Shown: positions 41,376 to 53,139 of the stretch, in pieces
Numbering within the stretch: position 1 is the first letter of the stretch
Layout: the number at the start of each line of letters is the position of its first letter
Origin: Gammaproteobacteria bacterium
GTDB taxonomy: Bacteria > Pseudomonadota > Gammaproteobacteria > UBA6429 > Thiohalophilaceae
Reading direction: 5' to 3'
NCBI GenBank assembly: GCA_024641475.1
Contig: JAHECZ010000018.1
Coordinates: 1-54,158 of the forward strand
Length of the DNA stretch: 54,158 bases
The notes under the pieces: model-generated
The model's database searches: none
What the model was told of the DNA's origin: nothing
What the model saw: only the letters and a program-made list of their open reading frames with translations
Program-made: the position numbers and the translations under genes

Positions 41376-41535
41376 GGTAGGCTAGTGCCCAAAATGAGAA
41401 ACAGTCCACACATCAATAGAAAATCCCTTATCCTTATATATGGACAGTAACCTGACTATTACACTTACTAACAAGCAGCGTTCTCTGCTGTCGAACTCAT
41501 TTTCACTCATGTAACTACCAGTGAAGGTCAAAGCC

Positions 41536-43962
41536 ATGGCACAGTCAGATAACGTCGTCAGCTTCAATAAAAAACCCGCAACGGAATCGCTGGATCAGCA
41601 AGTCAACGCCAAAAAAATCTATACGCGTTGCGAAGAATTAACGGTTAACCTGCTGGGAGCCGTCATGCAGCGGATGTTCGACAGCGCCGATGACACCTTA
41701 TTCAAATTTTCAGAAAAAGCGCAACAGAAAACCGAGCAGGCAAGCTACTTTGACTCGATGCGTATCGTGCGCCTGCAACGCCAAACCATTACCAATACTT
41801 TTATCGATCAGGTGAAAGCAAATTTCATCTCTGCCATCAACACGAAAAAATCTTCTGGTAACGATTTGGGGAAACTATCTTTGAATGAGATGACCTTGGT
41901 TGAAGAAAGTGATCTGGAAGAATCAATCGCGGTAAAAAACATGATCACCAAGATCCGTTATCAATATCCCGAAGAGCTTAATGCCTTGCAAACCCGTCTG
42001 GCACACCTGTTCCCCTCAGCCGGAGTGGATGATGATTCCAACCCCATCGGCCCGGAATCAATTTGCCAGGCTTTTATGCAAGCGATCAAGACACTGTCAA
42101 TCGGCGTCAATATCAATCTGATCATTCTGAAACTGTTTGAGCTGGACATTATTACCGGCTTAAAACCGTTGTATGACACAGTTAATAAATTATTGATCGA
42201 TGCCAATGTCTTGCCGGTCATACGCCCAACCTTCAATCGTTCCCCGGATCAACCAGGCTATACAGCCGCGTCTGGAATGCCCGCCTATCCAGTTACGGGC
42301 GCTGCGGCTGGCAGCATGACAAGTAGTGTACCCGGCGATACGCATCCGACCACCATGAGTGCCGACCTCTCCATTTCGTACCTGCACAATTTGATGAGCC
42401 AGTATCGTCAAACTCATGCCCTGCCCGGTTATGGTTTTGCTGCGGGTCAGGCCGGTATCCCGCAAAACACCATGCCATTAACAGCAGAGATGATTGCACG
42501 ATCCAGTAATACGCTGACATCCATGTTGACGACATTACAATCCAGTGATTTTTTGTCAAACGCCCAGCTTGGCAGCATGCCGATGGCAATTCCACCGGGT
42601 GGTTTACGCGAATATGTCATCAGCAATTTGCAACAACAAGGTCATGAACTCCAGACACTCAATCCTCTGGACACTGACATTATTGACATTGTTTCGATGA
42701 TGTTCGAATACATCCTCGATGACGATCGGATTCCCGATGCAGCCAAGGCGCTATTAAGCAAATTACAGATCCCCTTATTGAAGGCAGCGATTCTGGACAA
42801 ACAGCTATTTGCCAGCAAAGGTCATCCCGCACGCAGCCTGCTCAATGAAATGGCACGCGCCACCATGACCATTACCGCTAGCGATGTCGAACATGCCGAT
42901 AGCCTGTTAGCGGAAATAAAACGCATTGTTGACACTGTGGTGACCGAATTTAATGATGATCTGGCGATTTTTGAACGGCTGTTACGTGAATTCCAAAACA
43001 TCCTGGAATTGATCAATTTCCAGGAAGATGAGATCCATCAGCAGGTCGCTAAAATTATCAAACACAAGGAAGACTCCGCACTGGCCAGCAAGTGGGTGGA
43101 TGAATCCCTGAAAGAAATTTTGTCATCGCGCCAATTCCCGGCGCCGGTAGAAGCCATCATCACTGGCCCGTGGAAACAGGTCATGCTCACGACCTATTTA
43201 AATGCCGGTCTGGAAAGCGATATCTGGAAAAGCCAGGTACGTTTTATCGAAATCCTCGACTGGTCCATACAACCCAAACGTATCTCAATGGATCGCGCCA
43301 AACTGGCCAGTATTATCTATCTCCTCGTCAATACGCTGCGCAATGGCTTGAAAAACATTGGCACATCTGCTGAAGAAATAGTCCACACACTGCAGCAATT
43401 GGAGCCCTACCATATGGCCAGCATCAAGGGCATGCAACACAGCAGCCAGGGCACGCGCGCCGACTTTTCTTCCCGGCCTTTCCATGATAATCAGGAAAAT
43501 AATTTATCAGTCGAGGAAATTAGCGGTGCAATCAAACAAATTGAACATGAGATTGCAGAATTAACGGCCATTGATGAGCCGGATGAGATTCCCGCTGAGC
43601 TATCCGATAAGTTGATCATGGAAGATATCGTGCTCGAAGGCTATGACACACACGATCACGATCCAAGCAAACAACCCCAGGATGAATATCTGGAGCTGGC
43701 ACGCCACCTGGAACAGGGCAAATGGGTGGAATTTACCGGCAAACATAATCGGAAGGTACGCGCCAAACTGGCCTTCAAATCAGAATTATTAGGTGAATAC
43801 ACCTTTCTTGATTGGAAATATAAGGTCGTGGCAGATAAATCGCTTTATGCCCTCGCCGCAGATTTCCGCCGCGGGACGGTCGCCGTCATTGATGACGCGC
43901 CGCTTATCGACCGCGCTCTGGATGCGGTGATGAATACACTGAGCGGTTCGGGAAAAAAGTAA
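41536..43962 (+). CDS. DUF1631-family protein with PilZ-like C-terminus
   Basis: 808 residues from ATG 41536; GAAGGT 7 bases upstream supports it over the GTG at 41521. No signal or membrane segment. It is a large mostly helical cytoplasmic protein, with a low-complexity Ala/Gly/Pro/Thr linker near 240-280. DUF1631 proteins are widespread in beta- and gammaproteobacteria and of uncertain role. The last about 85 residues (GKWVEFTGKHNRKVRAKLAF, YTFLDWKYKVV) resemble a PilZ-like barrel, which suggests c-di-GMP or a related signal, although the classical RxxxR motif is not obvious. A diguanylate cyclase gene converges on it 39 bases away. Confidence 0.8.
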   Translation: MAQSDNVVSFNKKPATESLDQQVNAKKIYTRCEELTVNLLGAVMQRMFDSADDTLFKFSEKAQQKTEQASYFDSMRIVRLQRQTITNTFIDQVKANFISAINTKKSSGNDLGKLSLNEMTLVEESDLEESIAVKNMITKIRYQYPEELNALQTRLAHLFPSAGVDDDSNPIGPESICQAFMQAIKTLSIGVNINLIILKLFELDIITGLKPLYDTVNKLLIDANVLPVIRPTFNRSPDQPGYTAASGMPAYPVTGAAAGSMTSSVPGDTHPTTMSADLSISYLHNLMSQYRQTHALPGYGFAAGQAGIPQNTMPLTAEMIARSSNTLTSMLTTLQSSDFLSNAQLGSMPMAIPPGGLREYVISNLQQQGHELQTLNPLDTDIIDIVSMMFEYILDDDRIPDAAKALLSKLQIPLLKAAILDKQLFASKGHPARSLLNEMARATMTITASDVEHADSLLAEIKRIVDTVVTEFNDDLAIFERLLREFQNILELINFQEDEIHQQVAKIIKHKEDSALASKWVDESLKEILSSRQFPAPVEAIITGPWKQVMLTTYLNAGLESDIWKSQVRFIEILDWSIQPKRISMDRAKLASIIYLLVNTLRNGLKNIGTSAEEIVHTLQQLEPYHMASIKGMQHSSQGTRADFSSRPFHDNQENNLSVEEISGAIKQIEHEIAELTAIDEPDEIPAELSDKLIMEDIVLEGYDTHDHDPSKQPQDEYLELARHLEQGKWVEFTGKHNRKVRAKLAFKSELLGEYTFLDWKYKVVADKSLYALAADFRRGTVAVIDDAPLIDRALDAVMNTLSGSGKK

Positions 43963-45170: not shown

Positions 45171-46676
45171 TTACCCATTGGGCAATCCGATCGTACGGCT
45201 GCCACCGTAGCCGCGGCGCAGATCCAGACGACGGATAAACTCCGCCATAATGATTTCGTACAGACGGTCCCCCAGCATCGAATCTTCGACACCGGCATCG
45301 ATGTTAGGATTATCATTGATCTCGATCACAAAAACACCACGTTCGTTATGTTTGATGTCCACGCCATACAAGCCATCACCAATTAATTGCGCCAGACGTA
45401 AAGCTACTTTGATGACTTCTTCTGGTACCTGCTCAATGGGAAAGGCCTTGAAAGTACCTTCATGGGCACGACCCTGGTTGTCATGTTTGACAATCTGCCA
45501 GTGTTCCCGTGACATAAAGTATTGGCAGGCAAAAATTGTCTGGCCGTTAAGGATACCAATACGCCAGTCGTATTCGGTATAAAGATATTCCTGGGTTAAA
45601 ATCAGATCGGATTGCTTGAACATGGGTTCGGCAAGTTGACGAAATTCCGCGGCATTCGCCGCTTTAAACACACCGCGTGAAAACGAGCCATCCGGAATTT
45701 TCAGTACCGCCGGAAATACCATCTTATCAACCAGGTTGGTCCAGTTAGACTTATGCAATATTTCGGTTTGCGGCATAGGGATACGATTGGTACGCATCAA
45801 ATCCGTCAAAAATATCTTGTTGCTGCATTTCACGATGGAATCCGGATCATCAATAACAATCATGCCTTCGTTTTCCGCCTTCTTGGCAAATCGATAGGTA
45901 TGATGATCGATATTGGTAGTTTCACGAATAAATAACGCATCGAACTCGGCAAGACGGTTAAAATCCTTCTTCTCAATTAATTCGACATCAACATCCAGGC
46001 GCTTGCCGGCTTTGACAAATTTATTTAAAGCTGCCCGATCCGATGGTGGCAATTTCTCGGCGGGATTAAACAAAATTGCCATATCATAACGTGTGGTGGT
46101 CTTGGTTTTAGGAGACCGCCATGGCTTGCTCATGTATTGATTTAATGCAGCAATAAAGAATTCTTCCTGTACGGGTGTCAAACGATGCATGTGCAGTCGG
46201 CGTATCGCTGCAATTTCCCATAAACGATCTCGCTCGAAGGTTACACGCATCAACGGCGTCCTAAACAACTCATAAAGCTGCCGAGCGATATCCTGTAGCG
46301 CTTCATTGGCGGTCTGACCAAAAAAAATATCAATTTCAACTGTTTGGTCAACAGGATCTGGATTTATCTTGGCAAGAGCCTTCTGTAAATCCCGATCCAA
46401 ATCCGCCGCATTTAAACTATAGATTTTTTTACTGGATAAATCTGTCAGAGTACGTACGGATGGCAGAATTTTGTGCTTACGAGCCTCCGCCAGCAAGGAA
46501 CAATAATAACCCGTGCTCAGATAACTGTAATCACGGCATAAATTTATAATACGTAGATTTTTTTTCTTGGAAAATGCATCACTATTCAGATATTCCTGCG
46601 CAGTCATGCGCATCACGTCGGGGTAGTTCTTTTTCCAGTCACGTGGCTCTTCAATGAGCACCAAATGGGTTGCCAT
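45171..46676 (-). CDS. RimK-family ATP-grasp ligase with N-terminal extension
   Basis: 501 residues. The first about 200 residues form a family-specific extension (HLVLIEEPRDWKKNYPDVMR at the start). The ATP-grasp part (about 255-490) has AVLKIPDGSFSRGVFKA, EYLYTEYDWRIGILNG and metal ligands in VFVIEINDNPNIDAGVED. RimK relatives add Glu or other amino acids to peptide or protein ends by forming amide bonds. It starts 9 bases after the GNAT/C39 gene, so the two form a unit. The modified substrate is unknown. Confidence 0.88.
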   Translation of the reverse strand: MATHLVLIEEPRDWKKNYPDVMRMTAQEYLNSDAFSKKKNLRIINLCRDYSYLSTGYYCSLLAEARKHKILPSVRTLTDLSSKKIYSLNAADLDRDLQKALAKINPDPVDQTVEIDIFFGQTANEALQDIARQLYELFRTPLMRVTFERDRLWEIAAIRRLHMHRLTPVQEEFFIAALNQYMSKPWRSPKTKTTTRYDMAILFNPAEKLPPSDRAALNKFVKAGKRLDVDVELIEKKDFNRLAEFDALFIRETTNIDHHTYRFAKKAENEGMIVIDDPDSIVKCSNKIFLTDLMRTNRIPMPQTEILHKSNWTNLVDKMVFPAVLKIPDGSFSRGVFKAANAAEFRQLAEPMFKQSDLILTQEYLYTEYDWRIGILNGQTIFACQYFMSREHWQIVKHDNQGRAHEGTFKAFPIEQVPEEVIKVALRLAQLIGDGLYGVDIKHNERGVFVIEINDNPNIDAGVEDSMLGDRLYEIIMAEFIRRLDLRRGYGGSRTIGLPNG

Positions 46677-46685
46677 GTTACCTCT

Positions 46686-47789
46686 CTACAGTTCTTTTCT
46701 TGGCGGCTTGATGATGAGTACCGCTTTGAGCCCGGATCGCCCATAACGGGACATGCGCGTAAAATCATTTTTAGGAACGGGCATATTCACGCAGTCAATG
46801 ACGCTGCGTTCTGCATCCGTTGTCACATAGGGATCATGTGCATAAACATAATTGCTATCAAAACCGGTCACGACAATCCAGTGTGGCGTTTTTTCTTTAT
46901 AAATACGATACAGGCTTATTAACACAATAGGGATTCCGCCTTCGTCAAATTTAACCTGTAGCTCATCGACACTCAAGGTGCTATGTTCAAATTTCACCGG
47001 CAATTTTGCCAATTCATTCACCATATCATCCTGAACCAGACGCATCACCTCTTTCTTTTCATCACTGCGTACACTGTCAACAAACAAGGTGCTGGCATCA
47101 CTGACATAGAGTTCCACTTCAAACCCGCGCCGATATGCCGCCAAAGCCATACCGTAAGGTCCACAACCACCATGCCCGGACGTCATAAATACCGTCGTCG
47201 ATTCCCGCCATAAACGCAACTCCAGCTCACGTGTTTTTTCAATCTTGGGATTGAGAGCATGCATCGCCATCATTAATGCAGCCGGACCGCAGGTAAATTC
47301 CAATGTCTGCGCGTAATATGGTACGCGTACAATATCGGGTTTAAGCTGGGGGGCCAGGGATTTTTCAAAGCGCAAGGCATCGGCATGATCTTCATAGTAA
47401 TCATGAGTCATGGCAAATTGCTTGTAGCCAAATTTCTGATACATCGTGATGGCAGCGCGATTATCCGGCCGCACTTCCAGACGTAACGCAATGCAATGGT
47501 GTTGTAAGGCCGCTTGTTCTGCAGCACGCATGAGTTCTGTGCCGATTTTCTTGCCAGTATGTGCAGGATGTACCGCGATTGAATAGATACGTGCCAAAGA
47601 AATACCGGTACTAAATAATAGAATCAAATAACCGCATATCATTCCTTCACTTTCATACACCAGCGTCGTGGCATTTGCCTTGGTCAGCAGATAGCGGAAT
47701 GTCCGGCGCGAAAACCGATCTATCGTGAAGGCCAGATCTTCAATGTTGACGAGTTGATCCAGATCGGCCAACGTGGCAATTCGTATCAT
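46686..47789 (-). CDS. GNAT acetyltransferase fused to C39-like cysteine peptidase
   Basis: 367 residues. Residues 1-145 are a RimI-like GNAT domain (SIAVHPAHTGKKIGTELMRA, LRLEVRPDNRAAITMYQKFG). Residues 155-340 are a C39-like papain-fold domain with Gln161, Cys167 (LEFTCGPAALMMAM), His303 (TPHWIVVTGF) and Asp319 (VYAHDP), so the triad looks intact. There is no ABC transporter part and no membrane helix. With the RimK-like ligase downstream it may trim, acetylate and extend a peptide or protein N- or C-terminus. This pairing recurs in proteobacteria as far as I know, but its substrate is not established. Confidence 0.88.
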   Translation of the reverse strand: MIRIATLADLDQLVNIEDLAFTIDRFSRRTFRYLLTKANATTLVYESEGMICGYLILLFSTGISLARIYSIAVHPAHTGKKIGTELMRAAEQAALQHHCIALRLEVRPDNRAAITMYQKFGYKQFAMTHDYYEDHADALRFEKSLAPQLKPDIVRVPYYAQTLEFTCGPAALMMAMHALNPKIEKTRELELRLWRESTTVFMTSGHGGCGPYGMALAAYRRGFEVELYVSDASTLFVDSVRSDEKKEVMRLVQDDMVNELAKLPVKFEHSTLSVDELQVKFDEGGIPIVLISLYRIYKEKTPHWIVVTGFDSNYVYAHDPYVTTDAERSVIDCVNMPVPKNDFTRMSRYGRSGLKAVLIIKPPRKEL

Positions 47790-47915
47790 AATATTCTGCT
47801 TAGCAGGAATGGTGGGGCATGCTGAGACATGTTAAGCGCAATTATTTTTATGCGAGTTATGAAAGGTAATTACAATGTGATGGCACCAAATTCTGTATCG
47901 GTACCACCACAATGC

Positions 47916-48152
47916 TTATAAATCGAAATCGTCGCCTAACTCTTTTTTCAGGCGGCGTTCTTCCAGATATTGCTCCAGTTTCCGACGCATAATCATCCGC
48001 CGTGCAACTTCGTCTTCATTTTTTGCAAACTGTGCCGGGTCTTCGACCTCGGCATCGACTTCTACAATTTCATCTTCAATCAGCTCGTCACTACCGCCAG
48101 AGGTTTGCTCTTTGGCGTTTGTAGACTGCACAGCTTTTTTCTTCTTAGCCAT
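47916..48152 (-). CDS. Small charged protein, PA3496-like
   Basis: 78 residues. A Lys-rich start (MAKKKKAVQ) and an acidic middle (DELIEDEIVEVDAEVEDP) lead to a conserved helical end (RRMIMRRKLEQYLEERRLKK then ELGDDFDL). The end matches the Pseudomonas PA3496-type small proteins, described as putative envelope-integrity factors. It is likely real because of this conserved tail. It lies between the GNAT/C39 gene and ssb on the same strand. Confidence 0.65.
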   Translation of the reverse strand: MAKKKKAVQSTNAKEQTSGGSDELIEDEIVEVDAEVEDPAQFAKNEDEVARRMIMRRKLEQYLEERRLKKELGDDFDL

Positions 48153-48792: not shown

Positions 48793-50193
48793 TTAAGTGC
48801 TGGTCTCTTGTTCAACCGGGGCCAAAGAGTACGCATACAACGCGTCTTTGTCCAAGGCTTTCTGATCGACTTTTAGATAGGCCACACCCTCCTGAGCCAT
48901 CACCACAGCCTCACTGACACCTGTTATGGCCAGGAGTGTCTGTGCCAGCTGTCGGGCTTTTTCATCGGGCATAGTGCCTACTTTGAGCAGCTGACTGCTG
49001 AGATAGGGGGGTTGACGCATACCCAGTGCCAGTCCAAACCAGATGAGCATGAGCACGCCATTTACCGCAAATACCGCTTCCAAACTGAAGTGACCACTAA
49101 CATAGCCTGCACAAATCGCCCCGAGAAAAGCCCCGAGGAATTGAAATGTCGAAAATGCGCCCATCGCAGTGCCTCGATGCGCAGCCGGTGCATATTTGGC
49201 GACCAGCGAGGGCAAACTGGCTTCGAGCAAGTTAAACCCGATAAAAAATACAAAAACGCACACGATAAGCCCGCCCCACCACAGTTGAGCAAACTCCCAT
49301 AAGCCAAATGAAGCCAGCGTCAACGTCACTACTGCAGCTATAAAGACTTGTTTGAGAAGACGACGGCGCTCACCCAGAAAGATAAATGGGATAACAACCG
49401 CGATGGAAACCAGCAAAGCAGGTAAATAGATCTGCCAATGACGATTCGACGCAAAATGGTGCTGTTCTGCCATGATTAATGGCAGGCTAAAGAAGGTTGC
49501 TGTCACGACACAATGCAGTAACAGCACACCCAGATTCAGGCGCAACAATTGTCCATCACCCAATACATGGCTCAGCCAGGCCCATTCGACCTCGGTGTCA
49601 CGGTGGAATCGGGCTATCGGTGCATGCGGGATAAATACCTGTACAAGTACGAGTGCACCAACAGCTAAGCCAGCCGTTAACATGAAAATTCCGGATACGC
49701 CAATCCAGCCCTTCAGGATTGGCCCCATGACGATAGCCAGGGCAAACGACAATCCTATGCTGCCCCCAATCATGGCCATAACCTTGAGACGATGTTCCTC
49801 GCGGGTCATATCGGCGGCGAGAGCCATTACCGCACCGGCAATTGCGCCCATTCCCTGCATAGCACGGCCCAGCATAACGCCATAAATATGATCCGATACC
49901 GCAGCGATCACGCTACCCACGGCAAACAGAACTAACCCACCCAATATGACTGGCCGTCGTCCGATCCGATCTGATAAACGGCCCAAGGGAATTTGCAGAA
50001 TACTTTGTGTCAGACCATACAGCCCGAATGCCCACCCCGCTAATGCCGGTGTGTAACCGCTTAACGTCTTGGCATAGAGCGAGAACACCGGTAAAACCAT
50101 GAACAACCCTAGCATGCGCGAGGCAAACACCCCGGCAAGCACCAGTGCGGTGCGCCGTTCGGTCGCCAGCATACGATCGGAAATACGTGCCAT
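48793..50193 (-). CDS. MFS transporter with C-terminal YajR-like domain
   Basis: 466 residues from ATG 50193 (MARISDRMLATERRTALVLA); the frame extends to 50331 but that part runs through the uvrA promoter. It has twelve membrane helices, with motif A in GRLSDRIGRRPVILGG. After helix 12, about 65 cytoplasmic residues (DEKARQLAQTLLAITGVSEA, VVMAQEGVAYLKVD) look like the ferredoxin-fold domain at the end of E. coli YajR. It is an inner-membrane exporter of unknown substrate. The ssb-MFS-uvrA neighbourhood is conserved. Confidence 0.88.
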   Translation of the reverse strand: MARISDRMLATERRTALVLAGVFASRMLGLFMVLPVFSLYAKTLSGYTPALAGWAFGLYGLTQSILQIPLGRLSDRIGRRPVILGGLVLFAVGSVIAAVSDHIYGVMLGRAMQGMGAIAGAVMALAADMTREEHRLKVMAMIGGSIGLSFALAIVMGPILKGWIGVSGIFMLTAGLAVGALVLVQVFIPHAPIARFHRDTEVEWAWLSHVLGDGQLLRLNLGVLLLHCVVTATFFSLPLIMAEQHHFASNRHWQIYLPALLVSIAVVIPFIFLGERRRLLKQVFIAAVVTLTLASFGLWEFAQLWWGGLIVCVFVFFIGFNLLEASLPSLVAKYAPAAHRGTAMGAFSTFQFLGAFLGAICAGYVSGHFSLEAVFAVNGVLMLIWFGLALGMRQPPYLSSQLLKVGTMPDEKARQLAQTLLAITGVSEAVVMAQEGVAYLKVDQKALDKDALYAYSLAPVEQETST

Positions 50194-50233
50194 GACAAAG
50201 ACAATCCTTGGTGAGAGCAACTTGCGGGGAATT

Positions 50234-50263
50234 TTGCGTCGACCCCGATCTGGCGCGTATATT
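50234..50263 (+). promoter_or_regulatory. Possible sigma-70 promoter for uvrA
   Basis: TTGCGT (50234-50239), 18-base spacer, TATATT (50258-50263). The -35 is weak (3 of 6), the -10 good (5 of 6). No SOS box is visible. Confidence 0.45.
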
Positions 50264-50295
50264 AGCAGGTTTGATTGGTATGGAAAAAATCTTGT

Positions 50296-53139
50296 ATGGA
50301 TAAAATTGTCATTCGGGGTGCACGCACGCACAACCTTAAGAATATCGACCTGGAGTTACCACGCGACAAGCTAATTGTCATAACCGGCCTGTCCGGTTCG
50401 GGTAAATCATCGCTCGCCTTTGACACGATATATGCTGAAGGTCAGCGCCGTTATGTCGAATCGCTTTCGGCTTATGCCCGTCAATTCCTCTCGATGATGG
50501 AAAAACCGGACGTAGATCACATTGAAGGACTGTCACCGGCAATTGCCATCGAACAAAAATCCACCTCGCATAATCCGCGATCTACTGTTGGCACCATCAC
50601 AGAAATTTACGACTACTTGCGCTTGTTATTCGCACGTGCGGGTGAACCGCGCTGCCCGGATCACCAACTACCACTCAATGCACAAACTGTTAGTCAGATG
50701 GTGGATCAAATTTTAGCCTTACCCGAAGGCACCAAGGTCATGTTACTCGCGCCGTTGATCGAAGAGCGCAAAGGCGAACATCTCCAGGTTATCGAACAAT
50801 TACGTGCAAATGGTTATATTCGTGCGCGTATAGATGGTGAAGTCATTGAACTGGATCAACCTGTCAAGAAAATGGACTTGCACCGCAAGCATACGATCGA
50901 AGCCGTGATCGATCGTTTCAAGGTGCGTGCAGATATTGCACAACGACTGGCGGATTCAATTGAGACCGCACTGAATTTATCGGAAGGTATCATTCGCGTT
51001 GCTTTCATGGAGGAAAAGCGCCGTGAACTGGTTTTCTCGGCACGTTATGCCTGCCCACAATGCGGTTACTCCATCAGCGAACTCGAACCACGAATGTTTT
51101 CATTTAACAATCCCAGTGGAGCCTGCCCCAGTTGTGATGGATTGGGCGTTAAACAATTTTTTGATCCGGAACGGATTGTTTCCAGTCCTGAGCTCAGCCT
51201 GGCCAGTGGAGCGATACGTGGCTGGGATCGCAATAATATGTATTACTTCCAGATGCTCAGCTCGCTGGCGAAGCATTTCCAATTTGATATGGATAAGCCT
51301 TTTGGCAAATTATCCAAAAAGATTCGTGACATTATTCTTAATGGCAGCGGTGATGAATCAATCAAATTTACTTACCAGAATGATCGCGGCAATAAAACCA
51401 TCAAACAGCAACCGTTTGAGGGGATTCTTCCAAACATGCAGCGTCGCTATCACGAATCCGGATCAGCCTTGATACGTGAAGAACTCTCCAAGTTTCTCAG
51501 TCATCAGGTTTGTCCGGAGTGCGACGGCGCACGACTGACTCGATCCGCCCGGCATGTTTATATTCAGGAAAAATCCCTGCCAGATATTGCAGCCGTTTCA
51601 ATCGAAAACTGCCATGCCTTTTTTACCACGCTGCGTCTACCAGGTCGACGGGGAGAAATCGCGGTAAAAATAGTCAAGGAAATACTGGAGCGACTTAAAT
51701 TTCTCATCAACGTGGGGTTGGACTATCTGACTTTAAGCCGTAGTGCCGAGACGCTATCCGGTGGCGAAGCACAACGCATACGCCTGGCCAGTCAAATCGG
51801 TGCGGGCCTGGTGGGTGTGATGTATGTTCTGGATGAACCATCGATTGGGCTGCATCAACGCGACAACACCCGTTTGCTCAGTACGCTGACACAATTGCGC
51901 GATCTGGGTAATACTGTGATTGTTGTTGAGCATGACGAGGAAGCAATCCTCGCTGCTGACCATGTCGTCGATATCGGTCCCGGCGCGGGTGTACACGGTG
52001 GACAAATAATTGCGCAAGGTACACCGCAACATATCCTGGATCATCCTGATTCACTCACCGGTGCCTATTTGTCAGGGAAACAAACGATTCAAGCCCCCGC
52101 CAAACGCACCCCTCCCGATAAAGAAAAAATGATCGAGATCAGCGCGGCAGGTGGCAATAATCTCAAAAATCTCAACGTCAGTATTCCAGTCGGGTTGATG
52201 ACTGCCATTACCGGCGTTTCCGGATCAGGTAAATCCACCTTGATCAATGACACGTTATACCGCCATGCCGCGTTACACATTAATGGTAGTGGTGAAGATC
52301 CAGCTCCGTGTGATGCAATAAATGGTTTGGATCACTTCGATCAGATTGTTGATATTGATCAAAGCCCGATTGGGCGCACACCAAGATCCAACCCGGCCAC
52401 CTACGCCGGCCTGTTTACGCCGATGCGCGATTTATTCGCCGGGACTCAGGAAGCTCGCGCACGTGGCTATAATCCTGGCCGTTTCAGCTTCAATGTCAAA
52501 GGTGGACGTTGTGAAGCCTGTGAAGGTGACGGTGTCATTAAAGTCGAGATGCATTTCTTGCCGGATATTTATGTACCATGCGATATCTGCAAAGGTAAAC
52601 GTTATAATCGGGAAACGCTGGAAATTCGCTATAAAGGCAAAAACATCTACGAAATTCTGGAGATGACTGTCGAGGATGCCAATGATTTTTTCCACGCTGT
52701 ACCGCCGCTTAAACGCAAACTGCAGACTTTGATGGATGTCGGATTAAGTTACATCAAACTCGGCCAGAATGCCACCACCCTGTCCGGCGGTGAAGCACAA
52801 CGCGTCAAACTATCCCGCGAGCTCTCCAAGCGCGACACCGGCCGCACACTTTACATTCTCGATGAACCTACGACTGGACTGCATTTTCATGATATCAAAC
52901 AATTATTGCAGGTGTTATTACGTCTACGTGAACACGGCAATACTATTATCGTCATTGAACATAATCTGGATGTCATTAAAACCTGTGATTGGGTTATCGA
53001 TTTGGGGCCAGAAGGAGGAGATAAAGGCGGTACACTAGTTGCCTGCGGCACGCCTGAGAGTATTAGCAAAACAAAAAAATCTTATACCGGACAATATTTA
53101 CAGCACGCGCTCAAACAAACAGCAATTGAGAAAATATAA
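50296..53139 (+). CDS. uvrA: Excinuclease ABC subunit A
   Basis: 947 residues from ATG 50296 ([20 protein letters not shown]). It is the damage-recognition ATPase of nucleotide excision repair. Two ABC ATPase halves have Walker [10 protein letters not shown] (N) and GVSGSGKST (C), and signature LSGGEAQRI and LSGGEAQRV. Zinc modules are [20 protein letters not shown] through CPSCDG and [14 protein letters not shown] through CDICKG. It is complete. It is divergent from the MFS gene and followed by a perfect terminator. Confidence 0.98.

Follow-up and report, generated by a model that had tools for sequence, protein, structure and literature searches.

In the pathway for NAGGN synthesis (Ngg/AsnO/peptidase, TIGR03103; PA3459-PA3461 in P. 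aeruginosa), Ngg acetylates one glutamine and joins the acetylated glutamine to a second, as outlined in part of the text of PMC8070244. A retropepsin is encoded together with an ATP-grasp gene in the RimB and Rlo operons, according to an excerpt of PMC12239564. Fusions of a GNAT acetyltransferase with DUF3335 are also already in print, and the passages of PMC10318531 that deal with them cite Iyer et al. 2009 and allow that the GNAT part of these proteins may itself act as a peptide ligase.

We analysed a stretch of 54,158 nucleotides from a gammaproteobacterial contig (JAHECZ010000018.1, here called the window), in which a gene for an ATP-grasp ligase with an RLAN domain lies beside a gene for a GNAT-DUF3335 fusion. 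RLAN and DUF3335 are both in Pfam, and the copy in the window is an ordinary representative; what is new here are the linkage statistics, the loci without the C39-like domain, a fusion of GNAT with the ligase, and the evidence against a neighbouring 78-residue protein as substrate and against glutamate as the default. No experimental study of the pair was recognised in searches of an open-licence library, outside which most subscription journals lie. Gene neighbourhoods of this kind were reportedly first described by Iyer and co-workers in 2009.

Domain composition of the ligase and its partner

The ligase gene (45171-46676, minus strand) encodes 501 residues and was identified from matches to PF14401 and PF08443 and from a structure model. 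Nine bases (agaggtaac, 46677-46685, minus strand), which include a Shine-Dalgarno-like AGAGG, lie between it and the partner gene; the gene positions, the length of the ligase and the gap agree with the initial annotation. That annotation had also described the N-terminal half of the ligase as novel. Residues 26-176 (46149-46601, minus strand) matched the known Pfam domain RLAN (PF14401) over 149 of 150 positions (E 2.5e-51; 173.7 bits, cut-off 25), and this half of the protein is therefore not novel. An ATP-grasp domain is formed by residues 285-460 (45297-45824, minus strand), with a match to the RimK-like ATP-grasp family PF08443 at 48 bits (cut-off 21). K287, K326, D440, E452 and N454 were invariant in all 40 aligned rows, and we take these residues to have ligand roles.

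The ligase was modelled with AlphaFold (pLDDT 84.9), and in a structure search with this model residues 197-486, which have a pre-ATP-grasp and ATP-grasp fold, matched structures of RimK, LysX and ArgX with Z scores of 23-28 (7qys_E: Z 28.2, rmsd 2.6, 273 residues aligned). Solved complexes with RpsF and LysW were among these matches. The ATP-grasp half filled the list of matches and RLAN was not covered, and for the partner protein GNAT filled the list, leaving residues 150-367 (the C39 part) uncovered. Since both lists were filled by the better-known domains, neither RLAN nor the C39 domain can be called new. RLAN probably sets the substrate specificity of the ligase, although this is a guess on our part. 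We rejected the idea that RLAN detectably repeats the pre-ATP-grasp domain; hhalign gave a probability of 0.2 to 1%.

The partner gene (46686-47789, minus strand) encodes a fusion protein of 367 residues, as judged from Pfam matches and an AlphaFold model (pLDDT 90.1). Its GNAT domain (47373-47765, minus strand) is RimI/Ard1-like, the closest folds being N-alpha-acetyltransferases; archaeal Ard1 and bacterial RimI structures matched at a Z score of 23 (4pv6_D: Z 23.2, rmsd 1.3, 143 residues aligned). Glu105 was invariant in 30/30 rows and position 117 was Tyr in 23/30, residues that would presumably match the catalytic pair of RimI. At position 81 (47547-47549), in the acetyl-CoA motif, the window protein has Lys where 25 of the 30 rows have Gly, which is kept by a relative of the same genus (L020), and at position 78 it has Thr where 27 rows have Arg or Gln. 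With Lys81 and Thr78, activity of this particular GNAT is not assured. Its score with the RimI model TIGR01575 was 80.9 bits, below the cut-off of 86.4, and a separate gene in the same genome scored above the cut-off (128.3 bits). The domain order was the same as in other DUF3335 GNAT fusions (PF11814), from which the window copy showed no notable difference besides the weak acetyl-CoA motif.

The papain-like, C39-like DUF3335 domain (46707-47324, minus strand) matched PF11814 at 288.2 bits (cut-off 25). Gln161, Cys167, His303 and Asp319 were invariant in 30/30 aligned rows, the window included; the last three had been correctly picked out before, and we take Gln161 to be the expected oxyanion residue. 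An HGG at residues 206-208 was also invariant, and Cys209 was present in 29/30 rows. The invariance of the four site residues makes hydrolysis or acyl transfer by DUF3335 plausible as far as sequence can tell. The domain might act not as a peptidase but as a transacylase or transpeptidase, passing an acyl group via Cys167 between small molecules, which would be a variant, for one step, of the peptide synthesis that we propose below. Papain-like folds include acyltransferases, as mentioned in a portion of PMC10318531, a portion of PMC2922099 suggests that papain-like proteins encoded in peptide gene clusters may work as transacylases, and the conserved HGG and Cys209 would be compatible with this. 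However, our analysis found no relative with such an activity and the C39 part of the model lay outside the structure matches, and we consider a transacylase quite unlikely.

Linkage of the genes and constancy of the partner

A profile search of 398 genomes of the phylum detected DUF3335 in 58; within this sample the ligase, traced by its RLAN domain, reached 72/398 genomes and both families 57/398, with DUF3335 only in 1, RLAN only in 15 and neither in 325. Fisher p for the co-occurrence of RLAN and DUF3335 was about 1e-53, a value that is inflated because the sampled genomes are related and their independence is overstated. Both families lay on one contig, no more than 3.5 kb apart, in 55 of the 57 genomes that held the two; the exceptions were a genome in which they are 2.1 Mb apart (G062) and one in which they are on separate contigs (G247). 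The ligase and GNAT-DUF3335 genes are a linked unit, and the initial view that the ligase, the acetyltransferase and the papain-like site belong together was borne out. Among 14 well-known control genomes, RLAN was found in none and DUF3335 in one. Fifteen of 58 nearer genomes, including the window's own, carried RLAN, indicating a patchy distribution. Pseudomonas, Azospirillum and Dyella are among the named bacteria that carry the ligase.

Gene neighbourhoods were compared at 135 loci, made up of regions from 14 relatives, the best 80 of 582 contig matches, 40 further regions and the window. Seven loci without a ligase were left out, giving a set of 128; L125, L143, L144, L152 and L153 had been fetched for DUF3335 alone, and L056 and L091, in which the choice of ORFs hid the ligase, are outside the 128. 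Pseudomonas and Lysobacterales are over-represented among the loci, ORF starts were set mechanically, and at least one contig is probably counted twice, as L019 and L064, whose contigs and GNAT-C39 proteins are of identical length. Within 3 kb of the ligase, a GNAT-C39 fusion was present at 81 of the 128 loci, GNAT without C39 at 41, another C39 protein without GNAT at one (L028) and no partner at five. GNAT, fused or alone, therefore accompanied the ligase in 122/128 loci. A six-frame search with the C39 profile detected the domain at 81/81 fused loci, 0/41 GNAT-only loci and 0/5 partnerless loci. Among the latter, L115 is cut by the end of the contig, and the genome of L124 has a fusion on another contig (L125). 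The fused partner was upstream and divergent in 41 loci, upstream on the same strand in 34 and downstream in 6, and linkage of the ligase and its fused partner survives rearrangement.

Fifteen of the 72 RLAN genomes were without any DUF3335, and nine of these loci were examined, all of which (9/9) were GNAT-only. GNAT-only loci also occur in genomes that have a GNAT-C39 gene elsewhere, in at least three cases (L122, L126, L137). At L139 (4282-6285), GNAT, RLAN and ATP-grasp were in one frame of 667 residues, adjoined by a GNAT-C39 gene. Because GNAT-only loci are kept and GNAT is fused to the ligase at L139, ligation and acetylation look like the core of the system, with the C39 domain an optional accessory.

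For a tree of the GNAT domains, 129 rows were thinned by identity to 106. Three GNAT-only Pseudomonas rows were nested among fused rows, and the starred branches force at least three changes between the fused and unfused states. The outgroup rows were not cleanly apart, many forks were open, and the long-branch rows L140 and L141 may be falsely joined. Owing to the unclean outgroup and the open forks, whether the C39 domain was lost or another GNAT was recruited is not settled outside Pseudomonas.

At L028 (7888-12002), a C39 protein, the RLAN ligase, GCS2 and FGase lie in a row on one strand with no GNAT, and the C39 protein matched C39_2, not DUF3335. A DUF2817 gene was beside the pair in nine loci. 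GCS2 was not found in the window's genome, and DUF2817 gave no match there in a search in which the control was also without a match, so its absence is not shown. As separate observations, a GNAT-C39 gene adjoins a DUF2817-like gene at L152 (5508-7961), in a genome whose ligase lies 2.1 Mb away, and L143, L144 and L153 carry copies of DUF3335 at loci without an RLAN ligase, the L144 protein having about 150 N-terminal residues without a Pfam match at E 0.001. Open frames of 667 and 660 were seen at the RLAN matches of two genomes from the genus of L139 (G301 and G415, respectively).

Neighbouring genes and the question of the substrate

Just upstream of the pair is a gene for an acidic protein of 78 residues (47916-48152, minus strand; NCBIfam PA3496_fam), which has known relatives of its own, as had been stated, and which had been put forward as a possible substrate. 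Directly after this gene, separating it from the pair, folding predicted a hairpin of 14 pairs (47876-47911, minus strand) that resembles a terminator or attenuator and has a weak T tail. Its energy was -25.7 kcal/mol (z -5.5), and none of 200 shuffles was as stable; a loose scan found one such site compared to 3.2 expected from shuffles. The 78-residue protein was present in 4/135 loci, the window among them. Its gene was adjacent to the pair in two, the window and L020 of the same genus; in L030 and L023 the distance exceeded 1 kb. Given this rarity and the strong hairpin, we rejected the protein as the substrate; from its sequence context it is a poor candidate and is probably not part of the unit.

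A search for conserved small ORFs in the neighbourhood had also been suggested. Around the pair in the 128 loci, we found 1871 small ORFs, of which the 12 largest clusters were each limited to one lineage, the largest of them covering 13 Pseudomonas loci and 11 Lysobacterales-type loci, respectively. None of these 12 clusters was a RiPP-type conserved precursor ORF adjacent to the pair, and no small gene shared across lineages was present beside the pair in the recurrent neighbour clusters, which were read by eye and only some of which were matched to families. A RiPP pathway, in which a ribosomally made precursor would be modified by the ligase and GNAT and freed of its leader by the C39 domain, is consistent with the conserved papain triad, and papers on microviridin RiPPs contain both ATP-grasp and C39 terms. 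The restriction of the small ORFs to single lineages, the occurrence of the 78-residue protein at so few loci, and the lack of a C39-ABC transporter recognisable by eye among the recurrent neighbour clusters all argue against such a pathway, which we regard as very improbable.

The initial statement that no transporter is adjacent holds for the immediate neighbours, but an MFS gene (48793-50331) lies three genes upstream on the same strand as the pair. Elsewhere in the window, the product of 41521-43962 is an 813-residue DUF1631 protein that matches NCBIfam PacR in part, with a score well below the cut-off of that model.

Glutamylation as the default chemistry was not supported. The ligase did not reach the cut-off of any NCBIfam RimK-type model, and the models for RimK alpha-L-glutamate ligases gave 85.8 bits (TIGR00768, cut-off 143.4) and 35.2 bits (PRK10446, cut-off 331). 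The stretch FRSNLHRGG of the RimK reference rows, which we take to be glutamate-binding, aligned with HWITNTARGG in the LysX row. At this stretch the ligase had HWQ in 40/40 rows, HW being common to LysX. The Asn and RGG of the reference stretches were not conserved: in the gapped alignment of residues 385-406, Arg or Asn was found at no position in more than 17/40 rows, and, in the same gapped alignment, Gly407 was present in 40/40 rows and a second Gly in 14/40. Position 390 was Lys or Arg in 37/40 rows. Since no RimK cut-off was reached and the presumed glutamate stretch is not conserved, glutamate is neither to be assumed nor excluded, and S6 glutamylation was rejected as the default. Besides the ligase, PF08443 matched in the window's genome one gene resembling glutathione synthetase and one resembling urea carboxylase (both named by eye from the sequence), and no match to PF05618 (RimB) was found in that genome.

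The ligase may instead extend a protein encoded elsewhere, from which the C39 domain would remove the added residues, as RimB does for RimK, with GNAT acetylating the end of the protein. The structures closest to the ATP-grasp half are those of RimK, LysX and ArgX, enzymes that work on the ends of proteins, GNAT is RimI-like, and neither another RimK-like S6 ligase nor RimB was found in the genome. Protein modification nevertheless appears unlikely in view of the RimK scores and the unconserved presumed glutamate site, the lack of a small carrier gene common to lineages beside the pair, and the 41/128 loci at which the C39 domain is missing while ligase and GNAT stay.

Proposed function and comparison with known systems

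It seems most likely that a small acetyl-capped peptide is made or trimmed, rather than the adjacent small protein modified. We give about an even chance to the proposal that the two genes form a small module for non-ribosomal peptide synthesis, yielding an N-acetylated peptide by a logic like that of NAGGN synthesis. The fold of the ligase and its five invariant ATP-grasp residues suggest that it would activate a carboxylate as an acyl phosphate and join it to the amine of a small molecule, forming an amide. The RimI-like GNAT would then cap the alpha-amine with acetyl, and DUF3335, or in some relatives a DUF2817 protein, may cleave, trim or recycle the product. This product could be a dipeptide or oligopeptide that is N-acetylated and soluble, similar in logic to the osmolyte NAGGN. 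More tentatively, the core of RLAN ligase and GNAT may make an N-acetylated peptide built on something other than glutamate; in this reading the papain-like domain would be an optional recycling enzyme, lost in at least some Pseudomonas and perhaps repeatedly.

In favour of a peptide module we counted GNAT as the steadier partner, the fusion at L139, the linkage, the lineage-limited small ORFs, the N-alpha-acetyltransferase fold, the separate RimI in the genome, and the recurrence of DUF2817, GCS2 and FGase. Counted against it were the RimI/Ard1-like fold, which also fits acetylation of protein N-termini, the action of RimK-type ligases on proteins too, Lys81 and Thr78 in the window GNAT, the low TIGR03103 score (see below), L028 without GNAT, and L122, L126 and L137. 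Should the C39 domain be optional and GNAT and the ligase form the core, experiments should look for the loss of an acetylated small molecule, and not for a processed precursor.

The ligase differs from RimK, LysX and ArgX in its 190-residue N-terminal extension with RLAN. As in the RimB and Rlo operons (PMC12239564, in the excerpt cited), an ATP-grasp gene adjoins a protease gene; however, the protease domain of the pair is papain-like, not retropepsin-like, and PF05618 is absent from the genome. The likeness to NAGGN synthesis lies in acetylation and peptide ligation within one pathway with a peptidase gene alongside, as set out in part of PMC8070244, and L139 carries GNAT and ATP-grasp as a single chain. 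Unlike the NAGGN system, the pair has RLAN and a GNAT mostly fused to a papain-like domain, none of the eight window genes scanned was asparagine-synthetase-like, and TIGR03103 gave about 25 bits against a cut-off of 569, over the GNAT part only. By analogy, the pair would resemble NAGGN synthesis in its logic while not being a member of that pathway.
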